A DNA stretch of 28,166 bases from a virus. How positions within the stretch are numbered: position 1 is the stretch's first letter; every line of letters starts with the position of its first letter. Below the pieces are notes generated by a model. It saw only the letters and a list, made by a program, of their open reading frames with translations. It had not been told where the DNA came from and made no database searches. The position numbers and the translations under genes are program-made. The stretch covers positions 1 to 28,166 of IMG/VR virus record IMGVR_UViG_3300031837_000045. One strand, written 5' to 3'. This document shows positions 3,037-27,317 of this stretch, in pieces.

Positions 3037-3040
3037 GGCC

Positions 3041-3073: not shown

Positions 3074-3186
3074 GCGAAACGACAGTATGCTCTAATCCCT
3101 CACAGAGATGCCCATGCGCCGCGCAGCGACACGGCGAACAGGTACGAAGTGAACAAACCCTTCCATGCTACCGATGAGGCATCTCC

Positions 3187-3474
3187 ATGACTGTTCGCGC
3201 GAAAGTTGTTTGCGGCTCCAAGACCCTCTGCGCCCACCAGAAAGCCGACGGCTCGACCGTCGAGGCCGCCACCGTCAACTTCTACGGCGTCCACAAGGGC
3301 GTCTACAACGAAGCGGGCCATCAGATCCCGGGCAACGCCTACAAGGAGAACGAGATTTTCGGCGAGTATTCGCCCAACGTCTCGTTCAGCATGTACATCA
3401 CCAATCCCGATGCGCACAAGCAGTTCGAGCAGGGCGGCTTCTACTACGTCGACTTCTCGCAGGCGCCGGAGTGA
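3187..3474 (+). CDS. conserved hypothetical phage protein, 95 aa
   Basis: ATG at 3187 has GAGG about 7 nt upstream. The product starts MTVRAKVVCGSKT and ends GGFYYVDFSQAPE. A basic first strand, an N/E/N/F.G.Y middle and a C-terminal F..G..YYVDF motif are features of a small family I have seen in many tailed phages, without known function. It is the first gene of a two-gene rightward unit placed between two leftward operons. No promoter is obvious beyond the AT-richer 3070-3150 stretch. Confidence 0.72.
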   Translation: MTVRAKVVCGSKTLCAHQKADGSTVEAATVNFYGVHKGVYNEAGHQIPGNAYKENEIFGEYSPNVSFSMYITNPDAHKQFEQGGFYYVDFSQAPE

Positions 3475-3491
3475 GCGAAGGCGTAAACGCA

Positions 3492-3674
3492 ATGGGCTGT
3501 CCGGTATGCCCGCGCTGCGGCGATAGCGGCTGGTTTGGATTTTGCGGGGCTGCGGTGAAGTGTCCCTGCAAGAAACGCGGACCGGACCTATCGTTCATGA
3601 CCAAAGAATGGCTACGAAAGCATCTTGAACGCGATGATGCCCTGGGCATATCAGAGCCTGAAAGCGTGCCGTAA
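3492..3674 (+). CDS. small zinc-ribbon-like protein, 60 aa
   Basis: The frame overlaps the previous stop through GTG 3471, but ATG 3492 has a better-placed GAAGG and is chosen. The product MGCPVCPRCGDSGWFGFCGA...KCPCKKRG has CxxC, a single Cys and a CxC, resembling a DnaJ-type or rubredoxin-like zinc site. The C-terminal half (SFMTKEWLRKHLERDD) is helical and charged. Function is unknown. A strong hairpin follows directly. Confidence 0.6.
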   Translation: MGCPVCPRCGDSGWFGFCGAAVKCPCKKRGPDLSFMTKEWLRKHLERDDALGISEPESVP

Positions 3675-3715
3675 CGAGAGCCCCGCAAAGGCGCTTCTTC
3701 CTCGCGGGGCTCTCG
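3675..3715 (+). terminator. hairpin terminator between converging units
   Basis: CGAGAGCCCCGC (3675-3686) pairs perfectly with GCGGGGCTCTCG (3704-3715), giving a 12-bp stem with a 17-nt loop one base after the rightward stop. Only a short CTTT follows, so strength as a rho-independent terminator is uncertain. It separates the rightward pair from the leftward operon ending at 3781. Confidence 0.6.
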
Positions 3716-3780
3716 GCTTTGGGGCAGCATGCCCGCTGCCCACACTGCTCTGTCAAAACGGACTGTGTTCGATCTCTTCA

Positions 3781-4308
3781 TCATAGCCCAAACACCTTGC
3801 GCGCTTCCTGATCGGCCTTCATCCAGTTCTTGATGTCCGCCTTGAACTCGGCGCACGACGCAGGATCTTCCAGCGCGGCGCTCATCCAGGAACCGAGTTT
3901 GTCGTTGGCGAGCAGAAGATCGCGGACAGCGAACTCGCGCTCCGACAAGCGTTGGTTACTTGACTTGTCCTCGGACAAGTCGAAGTTGCCGTAGTGCAAC
4001 TTCTGCCACTCAACTTCTTCCTCTGGAGTGCGGGGTAAGTAACCCTTGAAGCTGCCGTTGTTGTTGAAGCGGCTCCGGCACGAATCCAGCGTCTTGTCGT
4101 CCCTCTTCGCCCACTCCTGTTCCTCCGCGTGCAGCAGCGCAATCATCTCCGGGTCGCCCGTTCCCGCAGGGCACATGCTGTGCAGCACGCACTTCTCTTC
4201 GACCTGATCGCATGGCGGCAGCTCGAACCTCAATGGGCACACCACGAGCCTATGCTTCGGACAGGCATTCGGCGTCGGGCACTCGGTGTTGGTGCGCGTG
4301 CAGATCAT
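3781..4308 (-). CDS. hypothetical protein, 175 aa, Cys-rich N-terminus
   Basis: ATG at 4308 overlaps the upstream stop as ATGA; the longer reading from 4569 is a shadow of that gene. The first about 50 residues hold seven cysteines (CTRTNTECPTPNACPK..., VVCPL, PPCDQVEEKC, HSMCPAG) and may bind zinc. The rest is hydrophilic and helical, with Trp-rich patches (EEQEWAKRDDK, EEEVEWQKLHYGNFDL) and a C-terminal ...KNWMKADQEARKVFGL. I do not recognise the family. It is the last gene of the leftward HNH-operon. Confidence 0.72.
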   Translation of the reverse strand: MICTRTNTECPTPNACPKHRLVVCPLRFELPPCDQVEEKCVLHSMCPAGTGDPEMIALLHAEEQEWAKRDDKTLDSCRSRFNNNGSFKGYLPRTPEEEVEWQKLHYGNFDLSEDKSSNQRLSEREFAVRDLLLANDKLGSWMSAALEDPASCAEFKADIKNWMKADQEARKVFGL

Positions 4309-4604
4309 TGACCGGGATACCGATTCAGCAACACACAGATTGAATCGACCATCGTCATGGTGGCGATGCGCAGGAAGTAGATTGACTGGACATCGGTGCG
4401 AACCGAGGTAACGGCGTAGACCGCCATGTCGGTGTTCTCTGTGGCGACATTCCTGGGCGAGTACTGCGGGTCGAAATCGATGGATACTGGCTTTGGCACA
4501 CGCAGCGCAACCATCTGATACCGCTTGTCCGCGACGTATCGCTGCCCATCCAGCGGACCACCGACGCATAGCATGCGGATCTCGTGTTCGTTGGGCATCG
4601 ACAC
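4305..4604 (-). CDS. conserved hypothetical phage protein, 99 aa
   Basis: GTG at 4604 is preceded by AAGGTG at 7 nt; ATG at 4598 is an alternative two codons in. The sequence includes the GGPLDGQRY signature, which I know from many small phage proteins, then R..Y.MV.L.VP and a YAVTSVRTDVQSIYFLRIAT strand-rich C-terminus. Function is unknown. It lies one base after the 4606 gene and overlaps 3781-4308 by ATGA. Confidence 0.75.
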   Translation of the reverse strand: MSMPNEHEIRMLCVGGPLDGQRYVADKRYQMVALRVPKPVSIDFDPQYSPRNVATENTDMAVYAVTSVRTDVQSIYFLRIATMTMVDSICVLLNRYPGQ

Positions 4605-4605
4605 G

Positions 4606-4872
4606 TCAGATCACCTTCACCAGGCGCACGCTCGGCCCCTGCTCCGCATGCCACTTGACGTGCACCATCTCATCCTCCACACGAATGTGCAACTCGTCGA
4701 TGTTGCGGCCGACGTGCTGCATGAGGGTCTTGGCGTGCAGATTGAGGTCGCGCACTTTCTCGTCGCGGCGGCGCTTCAACGCGCTGATATTCTCGTCCAT
4801 CGCGTTCAGTTCAGCAGTGATCGCGGCGTACTCCTTCGCGGCTACGCGCATCTCGTCGTCTCTTTCGCTCAT
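4606..4872 (-). CDS. predicted coiled-coil protein, 88 aa
   Basis: ATG at 4872 with AAGGA about 10 nt upstream. Residues about 5-60 (MRVAAKEYAAITAELNAMDE, ISALKRRRDEKVRDLN) form a long charged helix likely to coil. The C-terminal 25 residues (VEDEMVHVKWHAEQGPSVRL) look like a short beta unit. Unknown function, second-to-third position in the leftward operon. Confidence 0.7.
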   Translation of the reverse strand: MSERDDEMRVAAKEYAAITAELNAMDENISALKRRRDEKVRDLNLHAKTLMQHVGRNIDELHIRVEDEMVHVKWHAEQGPSVRLVKVI

Positions 4873-4887
4873 CTTGATCGGTATCCT

Positions 4888-5157
4888 TCAGTTTGTTGGT
4901 TTGGACAGAGGTCCAATGAACAGCCCTTCGCAGTCCACCGTGTCGTACGTCATGTCCATGCCCGTCACGGTGATGTAGGCTCTCCCCATGCTGCCGTCGT
5001 GGAAGACGATGTGCCAGTTGTCCGGCTTGCGTCCTTCGATTGAGCCCTTGAACCAGTAGTAGCCGTCGGTGGTCGGAGCGCGCTTGGCCTTCAGCACCTC
5101 ATCGCCGACGCGGAACTGAGGTAATAGTAGGTCGCGGACTTGGTCTTCGGCGGTCAC
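4888..5157 (-). CDS. small phage protein, 89 aa, unknown function
   Basis: GTG at 5157 overlaps the upstream stop as GTGA and has GGAG 8 nt upstream, which favours it over GTG at 5163. The product has FRVGDEVLKAKRAP and YYWFKGSIEGRKPDNWHIVF, followed by YITVTGMDMTYDTVD. A VGDEV start followed by W.KG.I.....W.V.F suggests a small SH3-like or Tudor-like barrel; that is inference from strand pattern only. Confidence 0.7.
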   Translation of the reverse strand: MTAEDQVRDLLLPQFRVGDEVLKAKRAPTTDGYYWFKGSIEGRKPDNWHIVFHDGSMGRAYITVTGMDMTYDTVDCEGLFIGPLSKPTN

Positions 5158-5462
5158 TTCCACTTCTCCACCGTCGCCTTATACCCGTGAGTACCGACCG
5201 CGTCCAGGTCGGTGATCGGCTTGCGCTGAGCGATATTCGCCGGCACCAACTCGTCGAATATCCAGTTGTCGTTCTTGCCGCAGGTCTTGATCGCCGCGAC
5301 GCCGGTCGTGCAGACGTCTGCTGGCCTCCAGGTGCAGCCACAGGGGCAGGCGTGGCTTTTGTGGTCGGGGTTACTCCACCCTTTCGCCTCATCCGGCGCG
5401 TCGATGTGTTGACGGCCACAGTTCGGGCAGTAGAGGATCATGGGAATGGGGGTTTCGGACAT
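5154..5462 (-). CDS. conserved phage zinc-ribbon protein, 102 aa
   Basis: ATG at 5462 has an excellent AAAGGAG 8 nt upstream, so the upstream in-frame start is rejected. The N-terminal half reads ILYCPNCGRQHIDAPDE, HKSHACPCGCTWRPADV and TGVAAI: a CxxC...CxC zinc ribbon followed by the W-R-P-A-D-V-x-T-x-G-V-A-A-I block. This signature is widespread in small phage proteins of beta- and gammaproteobacterial hosts; its function is not known. The C-terminal 40 residues (NDNWIFDELVPANIAQRKPI) are not part of the core I recognise. Confidence 0.83.
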   Translation of the reverse strand: MSETPIPMILYCPNCGRQHIDAPDEAKGWSNPDHKSHACPCGCTWRPADVCTTGVAAIKTCGKNDNWIFDELVPANIAQRKPITDLDAVGTHGYKATVEKWK

Positions 5463-5534
5463 CAACTTTGCTCCTTTTTCCTTTTCTGAGTGCGTCCCTG
5501 ACGATCTCTTCGTGATCGCCACGTCCGCACTGGC

Positions 5535-5563
5535 AAAATAACACTAAAAATCCGGTTTTTCAA
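5535..5563 (-). promoter_or_regulatory. sigma70-like leftward promoter
   Basis: Bottom-strand TTGAAA (5563-5558), a 17-bp spacer and TATTTT (5540-5535) lie between the HNH gene and the zinc-ribbon gene. Boxes match consensus at 5 and 4 positions. Transcription would start near 5528, giving the operon 5462-3781 a promoter independent of the HNH gene. Confidence 0.55.
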
Positions 5564-5969: not shown

Positions 5970-6164
5970 ATGAACCTTGAAACACTTGTTGCCCAGTTGA
6001 AGAGGCGCTGCGCTGGCAGCAACCAGAAGGTGGTCGCCGCGGAGATGGGCATCAGCAACAACTACCTGAGTGTGGTCCTGCGCGGCAAGCTGGAGCCGGG
6101 ACCGAAGATCCTCGACGCGTTGGGGCTCGAAAAACGTGTTTCCTACGTGGAGAAGAAGGCGTGA
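5970..6164 (+). CDS. small helix-turn-helix DNA-binding protein (Cro/XRE-like)
   Basis: The 64-aa product has a compact HTH: SNQKVVAAEMGISNNYLSVV followed by LRGKLEPGPKILDALGLEKR. The A-A-E-M-G-I-S-x-x-Y-L-S turn and the PG.KILDALG tail are typical of small phage regulators of this kind. There is no C-terminal oligomerisation or peptidase domain, so it is not a full CI-type repressor. It is the first gene of a long rightward train ending at 8490, and its promoter places the transcript start at the ATG. It is one candidate for the regulator of the shared operators described elsewhere, but no direct link is seen. Confidence 0.85.
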   Translation: MNLETLVAQLKRRCAGSNQKVVAAEMGISNNYLSVVLRGKLEPGPKILDALGLEKRVSYVEKKA

Positions 6165-9550: not shown

Positions 9551-9579
9551 ATGCTATCGCTAATATGGCGAAATGTCAA
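9551..9579 (-). promoter_or_regulatory. leftward sigma70-like promoter
   Basis: Bottom strand TTGACA (9579-9574), 17-bp spacer, TAGCAT (9556-9551). The -35 is perfect and the -10 matches 4 of 6. It overlaps the stop of the 48-aa gene and would drive the leader hairpin and the 31-aa ORF. Confidence 0.55.
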
Positions 9580-9722
9580 TCCCTCTTCACGCGTTCCGCT
9601 TCTTTCATCGTGATGATCGCGTTCGCCGCGTTGAGCGCCGCCTGGGAGAACTTCATGGCGTCGTTTGAGTCTTCCGCCGTAGCGGCCTTGTCGATCAGCT
9701 TTGCTACCTGTTCTTTGCTCAT
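9576..9722 (-). CDS. conserved small phage protein, 48 aa
   Basis: Bottom-strand ATG 9722 with GGAG about 10 nt upstream. The product MSKEQVAKLIDKAATAEDSN, DAMKFSQAALNAANAIITMK, EAERVKRD is helical. The pattern I..A....DSNDAMKFSQAA.NAAN is one I know from many unrelated tailed phages, without known function. It faces away from the regulatory block 9723-10076, so it is the first leftward gene from that hub. Confidence 0.75.
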   Translation of the reverse strand: MSKEQVAKLIDKAATAEDSNDAMKFSQAALNAANAIITMKEAERVKRD

Positions 9723-10076
9723 TGGGTTCTGGCTCCAATAGTGTTTAGGGTGTGTCCCGTGTAGCCGGGACCACGCTGCACTGGTCTCGAATAACTACGA
9801 CCTGATCATGGTCGTATGTCTGGCACCGGAATGCGTATGAGGAGTATCGTTTGGGATTGGGGTACTTGTCAAGGCGACATTTTTTATTTTTTGCGGCACT
9901 GATCGTGGATGGTTGTACGGCGGGGGTCGAGGGGAGCGCGGCGCCGGGTCCAAAAACGAGTCACCGGGGCCATAGGGGGTGTCGGCACGTCAGTATATCA
10001 TAAATATGTCGATATGACAAGCATAATCCGACGAACGGTCATTTCGACAACATGCCTACCGTTCGTCGGCTAGTGC
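9723..10076. promoter_or_regulatory. 354-bp regulatory block with dyads and operator-like sites
   Basis: No gene is visible. From left to right: GTCCCG/CGGGAC hairpin (9754-9771); TACGACC-N7-GGTCGTA dyad (9796-9816); operator-like TGTCAAGGCGACA (9867-9879) followed by T6AT6; TGTCGATATGACA (10007-10019); TGTCGAAATGACC on the bottom strand (10037-10049); and a perfect 12-bp inverted repeat (10028-10039/10058-10069). It separates a leftward gene from a rightward operon, like an immunity or early control region. Confidence 0.6.
10028..10069. repeat. perfect 12-bp inverted repeat with 18-bp spacer
   Basis: CCGACGAACGGT (10028-10039) and ACCGTTCGTCGG (10058-10069) are exact inverted copies. The left arm overlaps an operator-like site. 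It ends 7 bp before the -35 box of the next promoter. It could be a terminator-like hairpin, a regulator site or a recombination site; nothing in the sequence decides. Confidence 0.6.
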
Positions 10077-10105
10077 TTGACGCTGTATGTCGAATCGACA
10101 ATACT
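10077..10105 (+). promoter_or_regulatory. rightward promoter with internal operator TGTCGAATCGACA
   Basis: TTGACG (10077-10082), 17-bp spacer, AATACT (10100-10105). The 13-bp perfect dyad TGTCGA-A-TCGACA (10088-10100) fills the spacer. It should drive the operon starting at 10141. Confidence 0.65.
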
Positions 10106-10140
10106 AGGCACACAGTCACTCAACGCCAGGCAGACATACC

Positions 10141-10287
10141 ATGATCGCAATGCTCCTCATCATCCTAGTAGCAGCAGTGTTCTGCGGCATCGTTCTGGTC
10201 ATGGACGCACGCGCAGCAGACAGCCACTACGAGGCATTGAACAAGCTGCAGGCTGCACGCCAGCTGCGCCGCAACGCCAATCGCTAA
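10141..10287 (+). CDS. 48-aa single-pass membrane protein
   Basis: ATG 10141 encodes MIAMLLIILVAAVFCGIVLV, one hydrophobic helix at the very N-terminus, then a basic amphipathic tail (ADSHYEALNKLQAARQLRRN). This N-in or signal-anchor layout is usual for small phage inner-membrane proteins. It is the first gene after an operator-controlled promoter. SD is weak (AGGC). Function unknown; the shape does not by itself indicate a holin. Confidence 0.65.
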   Translation: MIAMLLIILVAAVFCGIVLVMDARAADSHYEALNKLQAARQLRRNANR

Positions 10288-10303
10288 CAGGACACACAGC
10301 GCC

Positions 10304-10510
10304 ATGACCACACCACACAATCACCCTGTAGTATTCGGCCGCAAGGTCGACGGATGCGCACGTTGCACCGAACTCAAGAACGGTGCCGCGCCGATCATGT
10401 GGGCATCAACACGTCGCAAGCAGGATGATGCGCGCACGATGGCAGCGATTCGCGCGCACGACTGCAATGTGTCACGGTGCGGACCTGTCTGCACAGTGTT
10501 TGAATGGTAG
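10304..10510 (+). CDS. conserved hypothetical phage protein with Cys pairs, 68 aa
   Basis: ATG 10304 is 16 nt after the previous stop. The product reads HNHPVVFGRKVDGCARCTEL, GAAPIMWAS, AIRAHDC and CGPVCTVFEW. The HNHPVVFGR.V.GC.RC and terminal CGPVCT blocks are those of a small zinc-binding family common in phages of proteobacteria and actinobacteria. Four Cys in two pairs probably bind one metal. Its role is unknown. It is co-transcribed with 10141 and 10549. Confidence 0.78.
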   Translation: MTTPHNHPVVFGRKVDGCARCTELKNGAAPIMWASTRRKQDDARTMAAIRAHDCNVSRCGPVCTVFEW

Positions 10511-10548
10511 TAATCGTCTAAACGCCAACAACAAACAAGGATCAACAA

Positions 10549-10947
10549 ATGACAACCAAGAAAGTGTACCAAGCCATAGCATCCGCAGTGCAAGCGCGCA
10601 CCAGCTGCGCCGCACGTAACGATCATGGCCGCTGGCATGAATGGGTAGTCAAGCACCAGGATCATGCCGACCAGATTGTCCGCGATCATCTTCCGTCCGG
10701 TAGCGGATTCGACAGCGCAACAAAGATCGACTGGGACAAGACAACGGCGGATAGGCTGGTGTTCATCGCCCCGTTTCATCATATGGACGATTCAGGCTAT
10801 GTCGGCTGGACCGATCATAACGTCACTGTTCGCGCATCGCTGGTGCATGGATTCGAGCTGCGCATTTCTGGCCGCAATCGGAACGAGATCAAGGATTACA
10901 TCGCGGATACGTTCCACGCTGCGCTGTCTGCCGATGTAGCGGAGTAG
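10549..10947 (+). CDS. conserved hypothetical phage protein, 132 aa
   Basis: ATG 10549 has AAGGA 7 nt upstream. The protein begins MTTKKVYQAIASAVQARTSC and contains HLPSGSGFDSATKIDWDKTT, FHHMDDSGYVGWTDHNVTVR and SGRNRNEIKDYIADTFHAAL. These blocks mark a family found in very many phage early regions, of unknown function. Length agrees with the family and no block is missing. It belongs to the operator-controlled 10141 operon. Confidence 0.85.
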   Translation: MTTKKVYQAIASAVQARTSCAARNDHGRWHEWVVKHQDHADQIVRDHLPSGSGFDSATKIDWDKTTADRLVFIAPFHHMDDSGYVGWTDHNVTVRASLVHGFELRISGRNRNEIKDYIADTFHAALSADVAE

Positions 10948-11015
10948 ATTCTCCGCTCGTTCGCTGTTATCCCGTCGCTCCGCTCCGCCAAAATCAAACG
11001 TCAAGGATCAACACG

Positions 11016-11381
11016 ATGAAAAACCTCACACGCGGCAACATCATCCGCCACTATGCCGGCGCTGCCTTGTGGTCTAGCACCGATGGCGAAGACTGCACGC
11101 CGCTGGACGATGGCCGCAACGAAGACGATATAGCGCCGGAAACGCTGCAGCAGATGCGCGACGACTGCGCCGATTTCTTCCGCGCCAATCGTCGCCAGCT
11201 GCGCGAGACTGGCGCGGGGCTGGATCAGCACGCGCATGATTTCTGGCTGACGCGCAATGGCCACGGCGCTGGCTTTTGGGATCGCGGCTATGGTCCGGTC
11301 GGCGATGCGCTTAGCGATGCGGCGAAAGTGTATGGTAGCGTCGACCTGTATGTTGGCGACGATGGGCTGGTGCACGCATGA
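11016..11381 (+). CDS. conserved hypothetical phage protein, 121 aa
   Basis: ATG 11016 follows CAAGGATCAACA, the same leader as 10549. The sequence has the family blocks ALWSSTD, DIAPETLQQMRDDCADF, HDFWLTRNGHGAGFWDR and VDLYVGDDG. I know this arrangement from numerous phage proteins of about 110-130 aa with no assigned function. The conserved HDFW...NGHGAGFWDR loop suggests a ligand or metal site (inference). Coupled to the next gene by ATGA. Confidence 0.83.
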   Translation: MKNLTRGNIIRHYAGAALWSSTDGEDCTPLDDGRNEDDIAPETLQQMRDDCADFFRANRRQLRETGAGLDQHAHDFWLTRNGHGAGFWDRGYGPVGDALSDAAKVYGSVDLYVGDDGLVHA

Positions 11382-11677
11382 ACCGCACCCTAGAACAGCG
11401 CATCAAATTCGACGCTGGCCTATCGATCGGCAAAAGCCTGGTCTTGCTCCAGCACCAGGACCGTACACGCCGCGCCATCGTCGACATACGGCCGCGCGGC
11501 GCGGTCTACGTCTTGCCGATGCCGCGGTACGAAGATATGTACAGCTGCTGGTCGCGCGTCAAAGGCGATGCGTGTCCGACCGATCCGAAAGCTGGCGTCA
11601 TCGTGTGGGGCGCGCAAGATCCGGAGCTGATGAAGCAATTTGACGGTGAAGTGAAAGCGACAATCGAGCTGCGCTGA
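11378..11677 (+). CDS. small phage protein, 99 aa, unknown function
   Basis: ATG 11378 overlaps the previous stop as ATGA. The product MNRTLEQRIKFDAGLSIGKS, strand-rich middle (RRAIVDIRPRGAVYVLPMPR) and C-terminus (MKQFDGEVKATIELR) have no motif I recognise. It closes the 10141 transcription unit before the next promoter. Confidence 0.68.
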   Translation: MNRTLEQRIKFDAGLSIGKSLVLLQHQDRTRRAIVDIRPRGAVYVLPMPRYEDMYSCWSRVKGDACPTDPKAGVIVWGAQDPELMKQFDGEVKATIELR

Positions 11678-11697
11678 AACATTGTCCGAATCTAACA

Positions 11698-11726
11698 TTG
11701 ACTCTCTGTGTTGTTAATTCGACAAT
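11698..11726 (+). promoter_or_regulatory. rightward promoter with operator TGTTAATTCGACA
   Basis: TTGACT (11698-11703), 17-bp spacer, GACAAT (11721-11726). The operator-like TGTTAATTCGACA (11712-11724) spans spacer and -10, differing from the 10088 site at positions 4 and 5 and in the centre. It precedes 11757. Confidence 0.55.
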
Positions 11727-11756
11727 AGGCCACGGTTTAAGAACGAGGAACACAGC

Positions 11757-11909
11757 ATGAAATACGAACCCGGCCAGACGATCCGCTACATTTCGTATGG
11801 CGAAGTGAAAACCGGAGTCGTCGCGCGCATCGGCGCCAGCGGCATCATCTTTCTGACTACTGGCCGCTTCGTCTTTGCGGCTAGTGTTGTGCCGGATAAC
11901 GCGCCATGA
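11757..11909 (+). CDS. 50-aa phage protein, possible SH3-like fold
   Basis: ATG 11757 has a strong GAGGA 7 nt upstream. The product MKYEPGQTIRYISYGEVKTG, VVARIGASGIIFLTTGRFVF is almost all short strands, with a PG..IRY..YG....G.V..IG..GI layout typical of a small barrel. No name can be given. It is the first gene under the 11698 promoter. Confidence 0.68.
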   Translation: MKYEPGQTIRYISYGEVKTGVVARIGASGIIFLTTGRFVFAASVVPDNAP

Positions 11910-12086
11910 AGATCCAGCTTGAAGTACTGGAAGGCGCCAGCCTCACCGAAGCCCGCGAATGGATCAAGGACTGTGACTGGCCGGATCTTGAGTCGGACGA
12001 AGTCGATGGAGATTACGCGCGGGGTGCATCGGCATTATGATGGGGGATTGGTAGCGTTTCTTGAGGCGATTGGGGTGCAGGGATGA
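11906..12086 (+). pseudogene. conserved phage gene with an apparent +1 frameshift
   Basis: ATG 11906 (ATGA overlap) begins MKIQLEVLEGASLTEAREWI, KDCDWPDLESDEVD. In that frame it ends TGA at 12038 after an unlikely tail. One base further on, from GAG at 12009, the sequence reads EITRGVHRHYDGGLVAFLEA and ends TGA at 12084-12086, overlapping the next ATG as ATGA. A phage family I know has exactly this order: WI.DC.W.DL then RG..RHYDGG...F. So one extra base near 12008 splits the gene. It may be a mutation, programmed shift or sequencing error. Confidence 0.7.
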
Positions 12087-12277
12087 ACACGCATCGTGCT
12101 ATTCAGTTGTCCACATTGTCAGACCGCGCCGCGTCCGAACGTGTGCGCTGCTTCATCAATGCCAGCAGCGCGGCCAGGATCGGCAACAGGAACGCCTCCC
12201 TGTACTTCTCCGCACGAGCACGCCAATGGGAGGCTATCCGTATTCGGGCGGATCGTAGGCTGATAAACGGTAGTTGA
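12083..12277 (+). CDS. small basic phage protein, 64 aa
   Basis: ATG 12083 overlaps the stop of the frameshifted gene. The product MNTHRAIQLSTLSDRAASER, VRCFINASSAARIGNRNASL, then ARARQWEAIRIRADRR is basic. No motif is recognised, although the N..ASLYF..RA..WE..R end suggests an amphipathic helix. Its stop lies inside the next promoter region. Confidence 0.6.
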   Translation: MNTHRAIQLSTLSDRAASERVRCFINASSAARIGNRNASLYFSARARQWEAIRIRADRRLINGS

Positions 12278-12302
12278 CGCACTGTCAAAACGACATTATT
12301 CT
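12274..12302 (+). promoter_or_regulatory. rightward promoter with operator TGTCAAAACGACA
   Basis: TTGACG (12274-12279), 17-bp spacer, TATTCT (12297-12302). TGTCAAAACGACA (12283-12295) fills the spacer. The leader then has ACAGAAAAGGAA (12321-12332), shared with two other genes. It drives 12342. Confidence 0.62.
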
Positions 12303-12341
12303 ATACGCACAGTCACCAACACAGAAAAGGAAACGCAAACC

Positions 12342-12638
12342 ATGTCACGCCAAAACGCCCTCGGCCGCACCAACACCGCAGTATGCACCGTTGACCAGGT
12401 GACGCACGTCACCTATCACAAGACGGCCGTTGTCAGCTTCAACGCCGACAAGATCACACTGCGCACTGGCGGCTGGCGCACTATGACTACCAAACTGCGC
12501 ATGAATCAGGCGTCGAATCAGTACGGCTTGGGCTTCGTCGTGTCGCAAAAAGATGGCGACTGGACCGTCACGCTGCGCAACACCGGCAAGGTGCTAGCAT
12601 TCAGCGATAACGAAATAAGCTTTCCGCGCTACGGCTGA
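12342..12638 (+). CDS. conserved hypothetical phage protein, 98 aa
   Basis: ATG 12342 has AAAGGA about 10 nt upstream. The protein has TYHKTAVVSFNADKITLRTG, GWRTMTTKLRMNQASNQYGL, GFVVSQKDGDWTV. The I.L.TGGW.T.TTK.RMNQ.SN.[YF]GLG..V.QK.G.W.V blocks define a family I have seen widely in phages and occasionally plasmids, of unknown function. The family domain appears complete. It is the first gene under the 12274 promoter. Confidence 0.83.
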   Translation: MSRQNALGRTNTAVCTVDQVTHVTYHKTAVVSFNADKITLRTGGWRTMTTKLRMNQASNQYGLGFVVSQKDGDWTVTLRNTGKVLAFSDNEISFPRYG

Positions 12639-12641
12639 GCC

Positions 12642-12899
12642 ATGAAAAATATCCTCCTGCTCTGCCTCGTCTTATCCTTCTCCGCGCACGCCCGCGGCGG
12701 CATGTCCAGCGGCCACGCCTACACAGGCATGCCGTCCAGCACCGTCCGCACGCAGCGAGCGCCGAACTTCGAGTTCGCGCCGATGCGGCGCAAGCGGCCG
12801 AATGATCGCGGGTCGGTGCATCTGCACGAGATTCCGCTCAGCACCGAGAAGCGGCTGCATCGGGAAGGGCTGGATAATACAACTGCGGTGTTCATCTAG
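12642..12899 (+). CDS. small predicted exported protein, 85 aa
   Basis: ATG 12642 starts a clear Sec signal peptide, MKNILLLCLVLSFSAHARGG, with likely cleavage after AHA. The mature part is basic and Ser/Arg-rich, with no domain I recognise. An exported small protein in a phage accessory cluster could act on the host envelope or in superinfection exclusion; that is inference. No SD is apparent, so translation may depend on coupling to 12342, which ends 3 nt before. Confidence 0.68.
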   Translation: MKNILLLCLVLSFSAHARGGMSSGHAYTGMPSSTVRTQRAPNFEFAPMRRKRPNDRGSVHLHEIPLSTEKRLHREGLDNTTAVFI

Positions 12900-12961
12900 C
12901 CTAGCGCTGTACGTCACTTCGTCCCATACTGATCACCGCTGCACCTAAGGGAGTTTGCCCA

Positions 12962-13156
12962 ATGAACAGCAAGCTGCGCTTCGCCTACCACGACCACGGC
13001 AGTTGCGACAAGCGTATCTGTCCACGCTGCGCGATCGCACTGTGCATCCGGATGGCTCGCCGAGCTGGCCGACACATCGAGCGCCGCGGTGCGCACCACT
13101 ATGCGATTTTTTGCGGCGGATTGAATATCCGCATCATTGAGGGCTTAGCGTCATGA
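12962..13156 (+). CDS. small Cys/Arg-rich protein, 64 aa
   Basis: ATG 12962 has AAGGGAG 8 nt upstream. The product has HDHGSCDKRICPRCAIALCI, a C-x4-CxxC motif with nearby His residues, and a basic middle (RMARRAGRHIERRGAHH), suggesting a zinc-binding nucleic-acid protein. No family is recognised. It ends by ATGA overlap with the next gene. Confidence 0.65.
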   Translation: MNSKLRFAYHDHGSCDKRICPRCAIALCIRMARRAGRHIERRGAHHYAIFCGGLNIRIIEGLAS

Positions 13157-13323
13157 ACGTACCGGCCGTTGTCCTCGTCCACATCGCCGAATCGATCCGG
13201 CGCCATGTGCCCGATGAAGCGCAGCGGCTTGCGCTCGCGGATGATGTGTCGCTGATCCTGGATCGGGACGAGGCTGCAGCGTTCTGCGACTTGGTGACTG
13301 CGCCTGCGGATGAAGTGTCATGA
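13153..13323 (+). CDS. 56-aa phage protein, unknown function
   Basis: ATG 13153 and the stop at 13323 both lie in ATGA overlaps. The product MNVPAVVLVHIAESIRRHVP, DEAQRLALADDVSLILDRDE is helical and acidic. Its P..L..HIA..IR.H....... LA....... pattern is plausible for a small DNA-mimic or adaptor protein, but nothing specific is recognised. Confidence 0.62.
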   Translation: MNVPAVVLVHIAESIRRHVPDEAQRLALADDVSLILDRDEAAAFCDLVTAPADEVS

Positions 13324-13454
13324 GCGCCGATGTTCTGTTGTGGGTTGCTGGTGGGTATGTGGCGCTGGTGTCCGCGTTGATATGGCGCATCGCTTACCTT
13401 GCGCCTGGCGCTTACCGCAACGTGCAAAAGGAGGATGGGACTTACCCCGAGTAG
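13320..13454 (+). CDS. 44-aa single-pass membrane protein
   Basis: ATG 13320 (ATGA overlap) encodes MSADVLLWVAGGYVALVSAL and IWRIAYLAPGAYRN: one N-terminal membrane helix then a short polar tail. Last gene of the rightward accessory cluster; a good terminator lies about 180 nt downstream. Confidence 0.62.
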   Translation: MSADVLLWVAGGYVALVSALIWRIAYLAPGAYRNVQKEDGTYPE

Positions 13455-13632
13455 CGCTGTAACTTCTATTTCTAACAGTGCCTTGATAGGCGAGGAGTGT
13501 GCATTGCCCAGGTGACTACCTGCGCTTTACGTCGAATCTCATGAAGTGACCGTTTCGCCGCGCTGCTTCGCTCTACGCCCAATTGATCCGGCGCGTTGAG
13601 TCCATCCAAGGCTGTAGCGCGGTTTTTTCAGG
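13455..13632. other. gene-free stretch before the terminator
   Basis: No gene is seen. It holds CAGGT-N4-ACCTG (about 13510) and, near 13585-13627, a GCGCG...GCGCGGTTTTTT arrangement that may be a second, weaker terminator. A short non-coding RNA ending at one of these terminators is possible, but no tRNA-like or known RNA fold is visible. Confidence 0.35.
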
Positions 13633-13670
13633 GGCCTGCCGATTTTGTCGGTGGGCCTTTCTCGTTTTCT
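13633..13670 (+). terminator. rho-independent terminator
   Basis: GGCCTGCCGA (13633-13642) pairs with TCGGTGGGCC (13648-13657) over 10 positions (two G-U pairs) around a 5-nt loop, then TTTCTCGTTTTCT. It should end the rightward cluster 12342-13454. Confidence 0.75.
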
Positions 13671-13715
13671 GGCGGTTTGGGATGCCGCGAGTCGCTCAGA
13701 TTTCACGCAGGGTCG

Positions 13716-13801
13716 TCAGGTGAATTAGATTCATCCGAAAACTTCAGGTGAATTAGATTCACCTGAGACGATCTGCACAGTTTTAGGCTTTAACTGTGCA
13801 G
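13716..13801. repeat. direct and inverted repeats downstream of terS
   Basis: TCAGGTGAATTAGATTCA occurs twice (13716-13733, 13744-13761). The second copy extends to a near-perfect dyad TCAGGTGAAT-TAG-ATTCACCTGA (13744-13766). It is followed by CTGCACAGTT/AACTGTGCAG (13773-13782/13792-13801), a perfect 10-bp hairpin with a 9-nt loop. They could end the leftward terminase transcript, bind a regulator, or both. Confidence 0.6.
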
Positions 13802-13806
13802 CATCC

Positions 13807-13850
13807 GCTTATCCGCCATGCCGGATACGCTTATCCGCCATGCCGGATAC
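13807..13850. repeat. 22-bp perfect tandem duplication at the terS stop codon
   Basis: The unit running from GCTTATCC to GGATAC (22 bp) occurs twice without gap (13807-13828, 13829-13850). Each contains TATCCG...CGGATA. The TAA stop of the terminase gene lies at the start of the second unit, so the C-terminal codons (RIRHGG and stop) are duplicated outside the gene. Confidence 0.75.
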
Positions 13851-14508
13851 GCTTTTTGCGCTTCAGCCCAGTCGCTGCCGCGGGATCTGCGCTCTGTGGT
13901 GACTCGATGGGCGCCGCTTGCGGCGTAATATCGATTGCCGTTTGCTGGCCAGTGGTCACATCGATGGCGCTGCCTTCGATGATGTTTCCGCTACGATCGA
14001 TGGTCCTTTCCCAGTCGCTGGACTGCATCGGCTGAGCGCTCAAAGCAAGCACGCCTCCGGTGATATTGATGCCTGCTTTTGCGTTCTCGCGATACTCTTC
14101 GGGACGTGACGCCTTCAGCAGCAGTTCATGCAGCCGAGAATCATAGATTTTCTCGTAGGCGATGATCTCGTCTTTATTGCGGCCTCCGATCAGCGGTTTG
14201 TCGGTGCCTTCGAGTGCGCGGCGCCTGGCTTCTTTGACTAGGGTTGTGTCGATGCAGAGTTGCTTTGCTTCTTCGTAGGCGGCGCCGAAGGCTTCGTCCT
14301 CCTTCGCGTGGCTCATGATCGTGGCGCCAGTCACCCCGACTTTCTCCGCGGCCTCGTACATGAGCCCGGATCGCACGAACTCCTCCAAAAACTGGACCTT
14401 AAGGTCGTTCGTGAACTTCTTTTGACCGCGCCAAACGAAGACTTTCGTCTTATCGACGGCCTGTTTGGCGCCGGGGCGCGTCGGATCTCGCAAAAGTTGA
14501 GCTGACAT
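13831..14508 (-). CDS. terS: terminase small subunit
   Basis: ATG 14508 opens a 225-aa frame. Residues about 30-100 have a DNA-binding HTH (GLMYEAAEKVGVTGATIMSH) followed by the family order AFGAAYEEAKQ, LVKEARRRALEG, YDSRLHELLLKASRPEEYRE. This is the layout of phage terminase small subunits, which recognise packaging DNA and load the large subunit. The C-terminal 80 residues are Pro/Thr/Ala-rich and end in KRKKRIRHGG, a basic tail. No large subunit gene is adjacent, which is unusual. The gene stands alone, leftward, with repeats after its stop and an AT-rich 780-bp region upstream. Confidence 0.8.
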   Translation of the reverse strand: MSAQLLRDPTRPGAKQAVDKTKVFVWRGQKKFTNDLKVQFLEEFVRSGLMYEAAEKVGVTGATIMSHAKEDEAFGAAYEEAKQLCIDTTLVKEARRRALEGTDKPLIGGRNKDEIIAYEKIYDSRLHELLLKASRPEEYRENAKAGINITGGVLALSAQPMQSSDWERTIDRSGNIIEGSAIDVTTGQQTAIDITPQAAPIESPQSADPAAATGLKRKKRIRHGG

Positions 14509-14866
14509 TGGCCCAGTCTAGCGATTCGGGCGGGCGTCCGCGATGACAAACCGATGGGTTTAGCCCCGACCTCGGCTTCCACGAGTTACCCCATCTTTCC
14601 CGCGCCACTTTCCTGTCAACCGAATCACCCTCTAATAAGTTGACAGCCCACAATCCTGTCAACCGAAAGGGTCTCGCCCAGGTATACAGCCGCCCAACTC
14701 CACCTACCGCCCATCGGAAACACTTAAAATCAGCCTCTTTTATTCCAACACGGTATAAGAAAACAAAAACCGGCACTTTTCCTATCTAAGGAACAATTTA
14801 CGACAACCCCCTAATTGAACACTGTTTAGGAGACTTTTTCCTCCGGTATTTATTAACCTTTCTTAC
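14509..14866. other. gene-free AT-rich leader region with TGTCAAC repeats
   Basis: TCCTGTCAACCGAA occurs at 14611-14624 and 14654-14667, 43 bp apart, with an inverted GTTGACAG at 14639-14646 between them. On the bottom strand these provide TTGACA boxes, possibly for terS, but no good -10 is at the right distance. A 108-codon bottom-strand frame (14450-14776) has atypical composition and overlaps terS, so I leave it out. Confidence 0.45.
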
Positions 14867-15020
14867 CTCTAAATCCTATATAAATAAGGGGTAAGTAGGA
14901 CAGTCTGGGCTAATACGCAGTCATTGTAGTCGCTTGGAAAAAAAAATTTCCAAGCAATCACTTCGTCTGCGTATTAGCCCACACGATCTCTCCGACGCCT
15001 TATTTATATAGGATTTAGAG
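14867..15020. repeat. 154-bp concentric palindrome, possible replication or packaging site
   Basis: Three inverted-repeat pairs share one centre (14943.5): an outer 23-bp pair (14867-14889/14998-15020, CTCTAAATCC...), a middle 15-bp pair (14906-14920/14967-14981, TGGGCTAATACGCAG) and an inner 9-bp pair (14932-14940/14947-14955, GCTTGGAAA) around AAAAAA. All 47 pairs are perfect. The unpaired intervals are equal on both sides (16/16 and 11/11 nt) but differ in sequence. The outer arms are strongly AT-rich. No gene is present. Confidence 0.85.
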
Positions 15021-15032
15021 CCCTAAATTGTT

Positions 15033-15064
15033 GTCACTTGCCCGAGGAAAAACCTGCAAGTGAC
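15033..15064. repeat. perfect 9-bp inverted repeat GTCACTTGC/GCAAGTGAC
   Basis: GTCACTTGC (15033-15041) and GCAAGTGAC (15056-15064) are separated by 14 nt; CTTTTC follows on the top strand. It lies between the concentric palindrome and the next promoter. It may be a weak terminator or an operator for the RHH protein encoded at 15288. Confidence 0.5.
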
Positions 15065-15079
15065 CTTTTCGACCGAGAT

Positions 15080-15108
15080 TTGACATCGCCACACATTGCG
15101 TGTATAGA
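15080..15108 (+). promoter_or_regulatory. strong rightward promoter TTGACA-17-TATAGA
   Basis: TTGACA (15080-15085, perfect), 17-bp spacer, TATAGA (15103-15108). It should drive 15288-17706 with an untranslated leader of about 170 nt. It lies directly right of the concentric palindrome. Confidence 0.68.
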
Positions 15109-15189
15109 GCGACCAAAACACAGACCTCAAGTCCAGCCAAGTGGGCCGCGATTCATTCCAGCCCACAACAGACACCACCCGGCACCACG

Positions 15190-15291
15190 ATGTTACCAGT
15201 TGGGCTCAACTCTCATAATCCCTTGCTGACTCCACACAACGCTAGTACTATCCACACAGGTCAATCCATACAGGCACTACTCAGCCAATGA
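15190..15291 (+). CDS. possible 33-aa leader ORF coupled to the RHH gene
   Basis: ATG 15190 opens MLPVGLNSHNPLLTPHNAST and ends TGA at 15291, overlapping the RHH start as ATGA. There is no SD, and composition is uninformative, so translation is uncertain. The overlap is its only support. Confidence 0.25.
   Translation: MLPVGLNSHNPLLTPHNASTIHTGQSIQALLSQ
15223..15251 (+). promoter_or_regulatory. second, weaker promoter before the RHH gene
   Basis: TTGCTG (15223-15228), 17 bp, TACTAT (15246-15251), 36 nt before ATG 15288. Each box matches consensus at about four positions. Confidence 0.3.
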
Positions 15292-15470
15292 CAATAAAAC
15301 AGCCGAACGACAAGAACCGAACGACGCAGCAATGCTCGATAACCCTCCCCAAAGATCAGTACGGGCGCATCGTTTTTCTGGCCACACGCCAGCACCGCCC
15401 TGTCTCCAACATGCTGATGGTCGCAGTGGACTACTACCTGCAGCACGCTCCCGAGGCCACACAGCCGTGA
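15288..15470 (+). CDS. ribbon-helix-helix (CopG/Arc-like) DNA-binding protein
   Basis: The 60-aa product has a basic N-terminus, then QCSITLPKDQYGRIVFLATR, QHRPVSNMLMVAVDYYLQHA. This is strand, helix A, turn (R-P-V-S-N) and helix B of an RHH dimeric repressor, similar in plan to the 3036 protein. It heads the cluster carrying the 506-aa protein and sits near the concentric palindrome, so it may control copy number or this promoter (inference). SD is absent. Confidence 0.75.
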   Translation: MTIKQPNDKNRTTQQCSITLPKDQYGRIVFLATRQHRPVSNMLMVAVDYYLQHAPEATQP

Positions 15471-15787
15471 AATACAAGAGTCTTCTTCCCCATACCACTG
15501 ACGAAGACGACAAGGTGTATACCGTCTACAACCCGGACGGCCGAACCTGCTCCCATCGTCATAATTCGACCCAGCGCGCCGAGCTGTGCCTATCCAAGTT
15601 GGAGGACCACAAGGGCTTTCTGGTGGGGCTGATCAAGAGGGGAAAGGTTTGCACCATTGATGGTGTGCCGATCAAGGGTCCACTCGGTCCTGTGTGGCAC
15701 CTGGTAGGAGCGAACGCCGGCTTGGCTGGCAGGGTCAGTTCCACGCGCGAGCCGACGCCCTGTCCGCCGCCCACATTCGATGACTGA
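15467..15787 (+). CDS. hypothetical protein, 106 aa
   Basis: GTG 15467 overlaps the RHH stop as GTGA. The product KYKSLLPHTTDEDDKVYTVY, NPDGRTCSHRHNSTQRAELC is followed by a strand-rich middle (GFLVGLIKRGKVCTIDGVPI) and a Pro/Thr-rich end. Cys and His residues (CSHRH, C) could bind metal. No family is recognised. It overlaps the 506-aa gene by 8 nt. Confidence 0.65.
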   Translation: MKYKSLLPHTTDEDDKVYTVYNPDGRTCSHRHNSTQRAELCLSKLEDHKGFLVGLIKRGKVCTIDGVPIKGPLGPVWHLVGANAGLAGRVSSTREPTPCPPPTFDD

Positions 15788-17300
15788 CCCCTCGCCTGCC
15801 TGCACCCACCTGCGTTCCGACCTCCTCCAGTGCGGCAGGCTGCATCGCGATCAAACCGATGCCCAGCAATGCCCCGCTATCCAGCGAACCCGCCTGCCCT
15901 ACCGCGCGGTCTTCCTGAGCAAGCCGGAGTCGCTCCTGCACGAAGATCCCGAACTGGCCCAGCCTATCGAGTGGGCGCCCGGCGTTCCTGCCGTATGGAT
16001 TCCACAGGATGACACCATCGTCGACGCGCGGCGCAGGAACGAGATCGCCGAGGTCAAGCGCCAGGGCAACATTCGGCGCGACGCCATCAAGACGATGCGA
16101 ACCGAGGAAAAGCAGTTCCTGGACTACGAGCGCCTCCAGAACTCCCCGCATGGCGCCCACTTCAAACAGCCCCACAACGAGCCCCACAATTTCACCGTGT
16201 TCCTGGTCGATCCCAAGACCGCGCACAGCAAGCTGTTCATCGTTAAAGCTGTGCGTCCGGCGCACCTGTGGCACCGTATGGACGCTGCCTTCTTCTTCCC
16301 GGCGCGCGACGCCTACGACCATTTTCTGGTGCAGGGCGCCGATCCTCGCAGCATGACATCCTGGATGGCGCCCGGCATGATGCCGTGCAAGTATAGCGGC
16401 GAGATGACGGACAAGCGCCGCGGGGTGCGCCACCCCTTCGTTTTACTGGGCAACCAGCACTGTTTTTCGTGGAGGGAACTGGAAGCCGGCAACAAGGAGC
16501 GCCACTTCTTCCGCGTCAGCCCCGAGTACTACCTGCGCATTGGCCATAACGACATCGTAGAGATGCACATAGTGCTTGACCGCCATACCGACCCCATCAC
16601 GCTCAGCAAGCCGATAGCCTGCTGCGGTAGCCGCTTCGAGCTGGGCGCGTGGCTTTCGGACAAGCGGCGGCGCAAGCATATGCCCCCTTACTTTCACCTG
16701 TCCGAGGAGTTTACCGACGTCCGGATCAGGGACGTGATCGACAGCTGCCAGCACGCCGATCCTGATGCTACTGGCGGCATCCACACGATGTACAGCTTTC
16801 GCCGCAAGACCGAGAATCACGCGTGGCTAGGCTTCTACAAGGCGCCGCACGCTCCGCTCTACCTACAGCAGACCGACGGCGGCCTGGGCAAGCGCCTCAA
16901 GAAGCTGCAGGACCAGCGCGAGAACATGACACCGCCGCGTCCTGATCCCGACTACGAGTTTGCCACGTCGATCAGTTTTGAGTACTTCGCCCAGAAGATG
17001 ACCCAGCACTACGCCCTATTCACGCTGGGCGGCGGCAAGAAGATGAAGGGGGACGGGCAGGACTTGTCCCGCGGCGAGTTTCAGCAGGAGTGCGACACCT
17101 TCTACGAGGATATCCAGTGGCTCAACGCGCATTCTGAGAACTGGGAGGGGAGTTTTCACCATATCCGATTCTCCAAGTTCGCGAGCCGATGCCGCCTGGT
17201 GGCGCACATGTACAAGGGCCGGTTGATGCTGTGCGACAGACCGATCGGCAACATGGTCTTCGACGACTGCAAGAACGGCTTTTACATATCAAGAGGTTGA
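15780..17300 (+). CDS. 506-aa protein of unknown function
   Basis: ATG 15780 begins the longest complete gene in the window. It opens with CTHLRSDLLQCGRLHRDQTD, which could bind metal, then a helical basic stretch (RRNEIAEVKRQGNIRRDAIK). The middle has NFTVFLVDPKTAHSKLFIVK, FFFPARDAYDHFLVQGADPR, HCFSWRELEAG and YYLRIGHNDIVEMHIVLDRH; the end has SGRSFL-free, Cys/Trp-containing segments such as CDTFYEDIQWLNAHSENWEG. I recognise no polymerase, helicase, nuclease or virion domain. It follows an RHH gene and a promoter next to the palindrome, so a replication-initiator role is conceivable but only from position. Codon use matches neighbours. Confidence 0.85.
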   Translation: MTDPSPACTHLRSDLLQCGRLHRDQTDAQQCPAIQRTRLPYRAVFLSKPESLLHEDPELAQPIEWAPGVPAVWIPQDDTIVDARRRNEIAEVKRQGNIRRDAIKTMRTEEKQFLDYERLQNSPHGAHFKQPHNEPHNFTVFLVDPKTAHSKLFIVKAVRPAHLWHRMDAAFFFPARDAYDHFLVQGADPRSMTSWMAPGMMPCKYSGEMTDKRRGVRHPFVLLGNQHCFSWRELEAGNKERHFFRVSPEYYLRIGHNDIVEMHIVLDRHTDPITLSKPIACCGSRFELGAWLSDKRRRKHMPPYFHLSEEFTDVRIRDVIDSCQHADPDATGGIHTMYSFRRKTENHAWLGFYKAPHAPLYLQQTDGGLGKRLKKLQDQRENMTPPRPDPDYEFATSISFEYFAQKMTQHYALFTLGGGKKMKGDGQDLSRGEFQQECDTFYEDIQWLNAHSENWEGSFHHIRFSKFASRCRLVAHMYKGRLMLCDRPIGNMVFDDCKNGFYISRG

Positions 17301-17304
17301 GATT

Positions 17305-17706
17305 ATGCAGACGATGAGTGCGGCTCATAAATATGACAACGAAACATGGGGCCAGGACGCGGTCCACAGTGGCTGCATTTATTGCGGTCCATCGGGTATG
17401 ACGCCGGAACTCTACGCGCGTCTCTGGTGGCGCATGCGTAAGATGCGCCTGGGCCATCCAAGAACGGTGTTCGAGGTGTGGGGCAGCTACGACTACAAGC
17501 GCGCCAAGAAGCCCGAAATACGCTACGCCGATAGGCTGTCGATCATCAAGGATTTCGGCGGCCACGAAGTGTTCGACAAGGTAGTATATCTGTGGCGTAT
17601 CTATGGCCAGCAGGAGAAAGACTGGAAGATGCCGGGGATGAGCGAAGAACACATTGCGCTCGCCAGGGAACTACCAAAATTCATTGAATTGGTGCCGCGT
17701 CCATGA
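17305..17706 (+). CDS. hypothetical protein, 133 aa
   Basis: ATG 17305 is 4 nt after the 506-aa gene, with GAGG 8 nt upstream. The product has SGCIYCGPSGMTPELYARLW, WRMRKMRLGHPRTVFEVWGS and RLSIIKDFGGHEVFDKVVYL. The single CIYC and the basic, aromatic helices suggest a DNA-associated accessory protein of its larger neighbour. No family is recognised. Confidence 0.7.
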   Translation: MQTMSAAHKYDNETWGQDAVHSGCIYCGPSGMTPELYARLWWRMRKMRLGHPRTVFEVWGSYDYKRAKKPEIRYADRLSIIKDFGGHEVFDKVVYLWRIYGQQEKDWKMPGMSEEHIALARELPKFIELVPRP

Positions 17707-17862
17707 CTGACCGTTCGTCTGCTCATCGTTCCAGCAACTGCGGTCTGGTGCCCATAACGACAAGGTCGCACCGCAGGAACGTCACGTATACGAGACCGTA
17801 CGCCAGGAAGCGCAGCGATTGGGCCTGTCGATCAGCGAGATTCGGCGTCGTCGTAACAGTTG
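17703..17862 (+). pseudogene. apparently frameshifted small gene
   Basis: ATG 17703 overlaps the previous stop as ATGA and begins MTDRSSAHRSSNCGL. That frame then gives an Arg/Ser-rich tail unlike the neighbours. Another frame, from about 17750 to TGA 17862, reads AHNDKVAPQERHVYETVRQE and AQRLGLSISEIRRRRNS, which looks like a genuine helical, HTH-like C-terminus but has no start. A frameshift between them would join the two. Decay or a sequencing error are both possible. Confidence 0.4.
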
Positions 17863-17893
17863 ACACTCCCGTTGTCACTATGACATAGTGACA
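17860..17893 (+). promoter_or_regulatory. promoter with a long perfect dyad operator
   Basis: TTGACA (17860-17865, perfect), 18-bp spacer, CATAGT (17884-17889). TGTCACTAT (17873-17881) and ATAGTGACA (17885-17893) form a perfect 9-bp dyad with GAC between, and TGTCACTATGACA fits the 13-bp operator pattern. The leader has ACAGAAAAGGAA (17900-17911). It drives the 17929 operon. Confidence 0.7.
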
Positions 17894-23329: not shown

Positions 23330-23358
23330 TTGTCAAATCGCCAAAGTCGGAGTATCGT
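23330..23358 (+). promoter_or_regulatory. rightward promoter TTGTCA-17-TATCGT
   Basis: TTGTCA (23330-23335), 17 bp, TATCGT (23353-23358). TGTCAAATCGCCA (23331-23343) is a degraded match to the 13-bp operator. The leader contains CAGGGATCAACA (23364-23375), like the leaders of 10549 and 11016. It drives 23397 onward. Confidence 0.55.
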
Positions 23359-23396: not shown

Positions 23397-23594
23397 ATGC
23401 AGAACCGAATCAACCTCAACGAGCCCGAACTGGGCGCAGTGATCGCCGGCCTGGTCGTGCTGAGCGCGCAGATGCAGGCGAACCCGCAGATCGTCGTCAG
23501 CGTGCGGGACATCCTTGGGCAGAACGGGCACTGCCTGCCGCTGTCGCACGTCGAGATCCGCGACCTGGCGCAGCGGCTGGATACAGGGGTGTAG
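23397..23594 (+). CDS. small phage protein, 65 aa, unknown function
   Basis: ATG 23397 is chosen although its SD (GAAGGG) is about 13 nt away; an upstream in-frame TTG is unlikely. The product MQNRINLNEPELGAVIAGLV, VLSAQMQANPQIVVSVRDIL is helical. N-terminal half could be an amphipathic membrane-associated helix. It is the first gene under the 23330 promoter. Confidence 0.62.
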   Translation: MQNRINLNEPELGAVIAGLVVLSAQMQANPQIVVSVRDILGQNGHCLPLSHVEIRDLAQRLDTGV

Positions 23595-23598
23595 GACG

Positions 23599-23796
23599 AT
23601 GATCCATACGAAGACCCACCACAAAACCCTGAACACGATATACGCCTGCGACATACCCGTGCGCCTGGTCCGGATGAAGCAGGAGGCCGTTGATATGGGC
23701 CTGTTCAAGACAGCTGCAGCGCTCGATCTGGCGATGGAGCGCGTCGGCTGGGAGCTGGCCGCCAGGCGCGAGAGGCTGGAGGGGGTGTCGTCGTGA
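23599..23796 (+). CDS. small helical phage protein, 65 aa
   Basis: ATG 23599 has AGGA close upstream. The product has DIPVRLVRMKQEAVDMGLFK, TAAALDLAMERVGWELAARR, two helices. Position directly before, and GTGA coupling to, the GHKL ATPase suggests a partner role (inference). No family is recognised. Confidence 0.65.
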   Translation: MIHTKTHHKTLNTIYACDIPVRLVRMKQEAVDMGLFKTAAALDLAMERVGWELAARRERLEGVSS

Positions 23797-27313: not shown

Positions 27314-27317
27314 CAAT

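Follow-up and report, generated by a model that had tools for sequence, protein, structure and literature searches.

A 13-bp palindrome, TGTC-N5-GACA, recurs ahead of genes in a 28,166-nucleotide stretch of viral DNA (IMGVR_UViG_3300031837_000045, positions 1 to 28,166; hereafter the window), and raises the question of what it does there and which protein reads it. The analysis presented here suggests that a YuA-like phage of 77 kb probably encodes a single dimeric DNA-binding repressor, that TGTCRWWWYGACA is its operator, and that it acts on nearly all of the early promoters of sigma-70 type. The sites, their enrichment and their positions within promoters were computed genome-wide, while the single binder, the repression and its encoding by the phage are what we infer from them.

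The window matches a stretch of the 77,431-base contig IMGVR_UViG_3300029951_000020 at 100% identity and crosses that contig's ends. Because the contig carries a 127-base direct repeat at its ends it was taken as complete, and it most likely represents a whole phage genome of 77,304 bp; coordinates above 28,166 continue the window numbering around the circle (rotated coordinates). Rightward genes occupy most of 5.9-29 kb and leftward genes 1.8-5.9 kb and 29-77 kb, with blocks for replication (34-47 kb), tail (approximately 51-64 kb), and head and terminase (approximately 65-76 kb). TerL is 61% identical to that of YuA-like phages, and the portal, family-A DNA polymerase (PolA) and primase are 50%, 49% and 51% identical to those of YuA; the same three proteins are 47-51% identical to those of YuA and of a related 64,096-base phage contig (G004), and the tail genes differ. 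By these sequence relationships of TerL, portal, PolA and primase, the phage is assigned to the Mesyanzhinovviridae, the Pseudomonas phage YuA group. Other contigs of the same virus differ by 0-2 bases, too few for judging the conservation of sites. Promoters and genes were predicted with simple scripts.

All eight sites named in a sequence-only reading of the window are present: five exact copies (9867, 10007, 10088, 12283 and 17873) and three with one mismatch (10037, GGTCATTTCGACA; 11712, TGTTAATTCGACA; 23331, TGTCAAATCGCCA). The arms are kept from site to site, whereas the central five bases and the flanking sequence are variable. The copy at 10037 had been assigned to the bottom strand; it exists, but the motif is palindromic and the label means only that the left arm is damaged. 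The exact motif occurs six times in 77 kb, five times in intergenic DNA of the window and once (33966) within a gene. Five exact intergenic copies in the whole genome compare with approximately 0.22-0.23 expected, and more than two were never found in any of 200 simulated intergenic sets. Among palindromes with 4-base arms and gaps of 0-13 in intergenic DNA, TGTC with a gap of 5 ranks first, with an uncorrected Poisson P of 3.8e-6 that we estimate at about 0.01 once corrected for the arms and gaps tried. The window-wide count at one mismatch or fewer is only mildly raised (20 vs 12.7, a value reached by 3 of 100 shuffles), indicating that the signal lies in the placement of the sites more than in their number.

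Placement was addressed by the comparison that the sequence-only reading had proposed, a matrix scan of promoters against genes, here run on the complete genome. A symmetric matrix was built from six sites (9867, 10007, 10088, 11712, 12283 and 17873). The outcome favours the motif: all 12 sites scoring at least 14 are intergenic, as are 15 of the 17 scoring at least 12, in a genome whose intergenic share is 19%. Column-permuted matrices (n=300) yielded a mean of 1.9 sites at a score of at least 12 (maximum 10), their 17 best sites included a mean of 5 intergenic ones (maximum 13), and none matched the real matrix. Six of the 17 sites had gone into the matrix itself and a seventh (17881) overlaps one of them, leaving ten others; eight of these ten are intergenic (5531, 10037, 23331, 27311, 34453, 41196, 45190 and 50883), all of them close to a promoter or to the start of a gene.

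A strict hexamer scan placed 12 sigma-70-like promoters before genes, and ten of them overlap a site; one sequence motif is thus found in many separate promoters. As the sequence-only reading had it, the sites at 10088, 11712, 12283 and 17873 lie in or beside the spacer of promoters with a TTGAC-type -35, some of them touching the -10. At 10077-10105 (plus), TTGACG-N17-AATACT holds the operator TGTCGAATCGACA (10088-10100) in its spacer, touching the -10, and drives 10141-11677; TTGACT-N17-GACAAT (11698-11726, plus), with the operator TGTTAATTCGACA at 11712-11724, drives 11757-11909; and 12342-12899 is driven by TTGACG-N17-TATTCT (12274-12302, plus), whose spacer holds TGTCAAAACGACA (12283-12295). 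The fourth, TTGACA-N18-CATAGT (17860-17889, plus), carries TGTCACTATGACA (17873-17885) and drives genes from 17929 on; its operator is part of a perfect 21-bp palindrome, TGTCACTATGACATAGTGACA (17873-17893), that contains two overlapping 13-bp sites. Two copies earlier treated as incidental also lie in predicted promoters. The operator TGTCAAGGCGACA at 9867-9879, listed as a mere further copy, covers the -35 of the leftward promoter TTGACA-N18-GATACT (9872 minus) before 9576-9722 (minus), and the supposedly stray weak version at 23331-23343 covers the -35 of the rightward promoter TTGTCA-N17-TATCGT (23330-23358, plus), which drives 23397-24917 and probably more genes.

Five site-bearing promoters lie outside the matrix set: 5563 (minus), 23330 (plus), 27318 (plus), 34466 (minus) and 45222 (minus), with P values of 0.003-0.022 when the hexamers were held fixed and the remaining bases shuffled. 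Among them, 23330 gave P 0.006 and TTGACA-N17-TATACT (27318-27346, plus), whose -35 is the right arm of the operator TGACAATTTGACA (27311-27323), gave P 0.003; TTGAAA-N17-TATTTT (5563 minus), before the early genes 1793-5462, has the weak operator TGTTATTTTGCCA (5531-5543, minus; score 12.5) over its -10, with P 0.0065. The Fisher combined P is 1.8e-6 over all seven non-matrix promoters, including the two failures, 14662 (minus) and 15080 (plus). Ahead of a ParB-like gene, the promoter TTTACT-N17-TATTGT (41226 minus) likewise carries one that covers the -10 (P 0.0007), this promoter having been chosen because of the site. No site was found at the promoters 14662 (minus) of TerS, 15080 (plus) of a ribbon-helix-helix (RHH) gene at 15288, 5933 (plus) of an XRE-type gene at 5970, or 3073 (minus) of an RHH gene at 2830.

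How a protein at these sites would act is suggested by their geometry. Counted from where the -35 begins, the site starts anywhere between -7 and +20: it covers the -35 at 9872, 23330, 27318 and 34466, covers the -10 at 5563, 41226 and 45222, and falls in the spacer, sometimes touching the -10, at 10077, 11698, 12274 and 17860. The hexamers of the site-bearing promoters are near consensus and their spacers mostly 17-18 bp. Activators usually require a fixed geometry, and a blocker does not. Because the offset varies and the hexamers are near consensus, a steric repressor is preferred over an activator; bound over the spacer, the -10 or the -35, it would exclude host RNA polymerase. A regulator that activates or modulates, with the palindrome belonging to a phage-specific class of promoters that need a phage cofactor to be read, has a precedent in what was proposed for YuA, where five repeats are annotated as a 'putative sigma70 promoter requiring phage-encoded cofactor', and the 41226 promoter contains the YuA-like sequence CTTTACTTCT. 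With offsets on either side of the spacer, and hexamers and spacers that seem to need no help, we consider that reading quite improbable.

The likeness of these promoters could also stem from copying, duplicated promoter-leader cassettes carrying along a palindrome with no function. Promoters 12274, 17860 and 45222 do have the leader CACAGAAAAGGAA in common, and 10077 and 12274 share CACAGTCAC. However, the arms stay constant among sites whose centres and flanks are different, the palindrome has no fixed place in the promoter, both directions are represented, and the shared leader is largely Shine-Dalgarno context that is found in G004 too; of the explanations weighed here, copying strikes us as the most remote.

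If the palindrome is a repressor's operator, its reach is broad. The sequence-only reading envisaged one repressor controlling several accessory operons; one regulator with dispersed operators agrees with the matrix scan, but the units concerned are most of the detectable early units rather than accessory ones. The units that follow sites take in the majority of early genes, the ParB-like gene (and, farther along, PolA), the helix-turn-helix (HTH) gene 27353 and a conserved gene of the replication region (44578); a gene for a small membrane protein (50671) is perhaps controlled as well, from the site at 50883, where there is no clear promoter. The densest array is at 9867-10100, where four sites lie between two divergent promoters, 9872 (minus) and 10077 (plus): besides those at 9867 and 10088, the exact TGTCGATATGACA (10007-10019, score 19.3) and GGTCATTTCGACA (10037-10049, score 14.3), which has one arm damaged. 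This region may be a cooperative control centre.

Which protein would bind? The first candidate, tentatively and at somewhat less than an even chance, is the 86-aa HTH protein encoded at 27353-27613 (plus), which has sub-threshold matches to HTH_23, HTH_29 and MerR and is modelled as a set of helices arranged like an HTH (pLDDT 67). Its promoter has the operator over its own -35, from which negative autoregulation is proposed, and its ATG at 27353 lies six bases after the -10, so the transcript would be leaderless or nearly so. No relatives outside the virus itself were found in viral, phage and bacterial genome collections, bar one 24-residue match, which fits a motif that has not turned up elsewhere. 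A Foldseek search with the model gave no meaningful match. The second candidate, possible but clearly weaker, is the 64-aa XRE-type HTH protein encoded at 5970-6164 (plus), with a sub-threshold HTH_3 match, matches to PHROGs regulators and an XRE-like model. Its gene, leaderless or nearly so, is served by TTGCAT-N17-TATAAC (5933 on), free of the operator, and its product could be a constitutive repressor. The 60-aa RHH protein encoded at 15288-15470 (plus; RHH_5 just below cut-off) is an unlikely binder. The product of 36963-37295 is 41% identical to the putative YuA repressor gp25 and ranks low because YuA and G004 share the homologue yet lack the motif set; this protein, another phage protein and a host protein are doubtful even when taken jointly, somewhat less so than the RHH protein by itself. 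The RHH protein of 2830-3036 (minus) was set aside, since its own promoter bears a different inverted repeat, GCAAGTGTAG-N11-CTACACTTGC. That repeat (window 3037-3073, minus) lies over the -35 and -10 of this nearly leaderless gene and looks like the protein's own operator.

The ParB-like protein (40318-41160) is as unlikely a binder as the 15288 product, and it carries an explanation of its own, in which an orphan ParB-family protein would be a global repressor like KorB and the 13-bp palindromes its loading sites, like OB. The protein has a ParB HTH domain, falls in a ParB-like partition family and resembles Spo0J and Noc in its CTPase and HTH portions; the promoter of its gene has a site covering the -10; and KorB is known to silence via dispersed OB palindromes (PMC11790492). 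On the other hand, no ParA (AAA_31) was found in the genome, the nearest ParB relatives, those of Bordetella PBb001 and PY223 (42-46% identical), come with no exact site, and the sites sit in promoters, which a sliding clamp would not require. We regard this explanation as improbable.

Borrowing of host regulators, LexA among them, is known from phages, and a host regulator at these sites would let the phage read the state of the cell through an SOS-like or nutritional signal. Kinship makes gamma- and betaproteobacteria the likely hosts, and the motif differs from their LexA box, CTGT-N8-ACAG; the site set is missing from related phages that have similar hosts, and the phage itself encodes several HTH and RHH genes. 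A host protein in this role therefore seems very improbable to us.

Several points limit the case for one phage-encoded repressor on these promoters. As a set, TGTC-N5-GACA is absent from every relative examined: 166 loci and 14 further whole records held scattered single copies only, with at most four in one 67-kb record whose promoter pattern was not checked, and no site was found ahead of genes homologous to 12342 and 10549; this speaks neither for nor against conservation of the site. Relatives bear other repeats, CTTTACTTCTTCGG in YuA, GTTTACGGCGTTT four times in G005 and TTATTGTACCA three times in G006, and we found no paper tying the YuA-like phage family to an operator. Among the held-out sites, several score low (12.5-14.3). 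An arm of the site is similar to the -35 hexamer TTGACA, a bias that the fixed-hexamer shuffles remove only partly; the promoters and genes behind the regulon are predictions, and the binder is known as candidates only. As an observation in its own right, the G005 repeat (IMGVR_UViG_3300031673_000040) is intergenic and dispersed, at 5946, 16388, 30955 and 44136 (minus).

Some features of the genome stand apart from the palindrome. TerS (13831-14493, minus) lies alone inside the rightward early region and has its own promoter; TerL (74189-75697, minus) is approximately 16 kb away around the circle. A direct repeat, CCACTTTCCTGTCAACCGAA and CCACAATCCTGTCAACCGAA (window 14605-14667, 43 bp apart), flanks that promoter and is possibly a separate binding site. 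Between TerS and the RHH gene at 15288 lies a large imperfect palindrome (window 14835-15052) with 106-nt arms, 72% complementary, and a 6-nt centre, which might be an origin, a packaging site or what is left of a mobile element; Rfam matched no RNA family in the window, this palindrome included. An open reading frame for an SNF2-type helicase (rotated coordinates 46136-47245, minus) starts, as predicted, with a stretch resembling the C-terminal end of an intein (...YLVHN followed by CWRA), so that an intein may interrupt the helicase.

Comparison with known systems brings the proposed repressor into focus. P1 C1 has 22 dispersed operators, 17 bp long and asymmetric (ATTGCTCTAATAAATTT) (PMC8546580). 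Common to both are many operators at the promoters of separate early units and one repressor, here an inferred one, with autoregulation likely in each; in contrast, the present operator is a 13-bp palindrome, no C1 homologue was identified in this phage, and no lysogen of it is known. The stoperators of Cluster A mycobacteriophages (L5, Bxb1) are 13 bp and asymmetric, mostly oriented one way along transcription, with many away from promoters (PMC6550527, PMC9283540). They resemble the proposed system in being genome-wide 13-bp sites for one repressor, with a specificity that differs among relatives; here, however, the sites are palindromic and the intergenic ones adjoin gene starts or promoters, which places them outside that class. 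In RK2, the KorB operator OB is TTTAGCGGCTAAA (PMC11790492); palindromic 13-bp sites, many promoters and an encoded ParB-family protein are shared with it, but here the ParB-like protein is one candidate among several and ParA and KorA were not found. YuA, of the same phage group, likewise has repeated elements ahead of scattered early and middle genes, but its repeat is a non-palindromic promoter element and it lacks the TGTC-N5-GACA set. By analogy, then, the present system would work like P1 C1, while by sequence it appears to belong to none of P1 C1, stoperators or KorB; phage-wide switches are known elsewhere, and this one would be a further member of the kind with an operator sequence of its own.

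Repression of this breadth would have two possible uses, shutting off early genes later in infection or maintaining dormancy or immunity, the last being the comparison drawn in the sequence-only reading. The 77 kb, in which a ParB-like gene is present, gave no match to a tyrosine integrase, a serine recombinase or ParA (AAA_31); other types of maintenance system were not searched for. YuA gp26 is annotated as a 'putative integrase' and has been cited as a sign of lysogeny for the relative Ab18; its homologue here (34469-36955, minus) is a DNA primase by PHROGs, and from sequence the integrase label looks wrong. Lysogens of Ab18 were not obtained, as reported for YuA, and in one strain Ab18 DNA persisted for some generations and was then lost (PMC4482731). 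Shutting down early genes within a lytic cycle and dormancy without integration are both possible. The bolder proposal, that in an integrase-less YuA relative a P1-C1-like repressor on nearly every early promoter silences the genome in a non-integrated dormant or carrier state, is one to which we give a minor though real chance. If true, it would explain the unstable 'pseudolysogeny' of Ab18 (PMC4482731), and the operator sequence would be expected to turn over fast within the family, in the manner of an immunity type. That most of the detectable early promoters have one operator in common points to a master switch; the analysis names its sites and a few proteins that might act on them. If the switch is real, the choice between early shut-off in lytic growth and non-integrated dormancy becomes directly testable for YuA-like phages.

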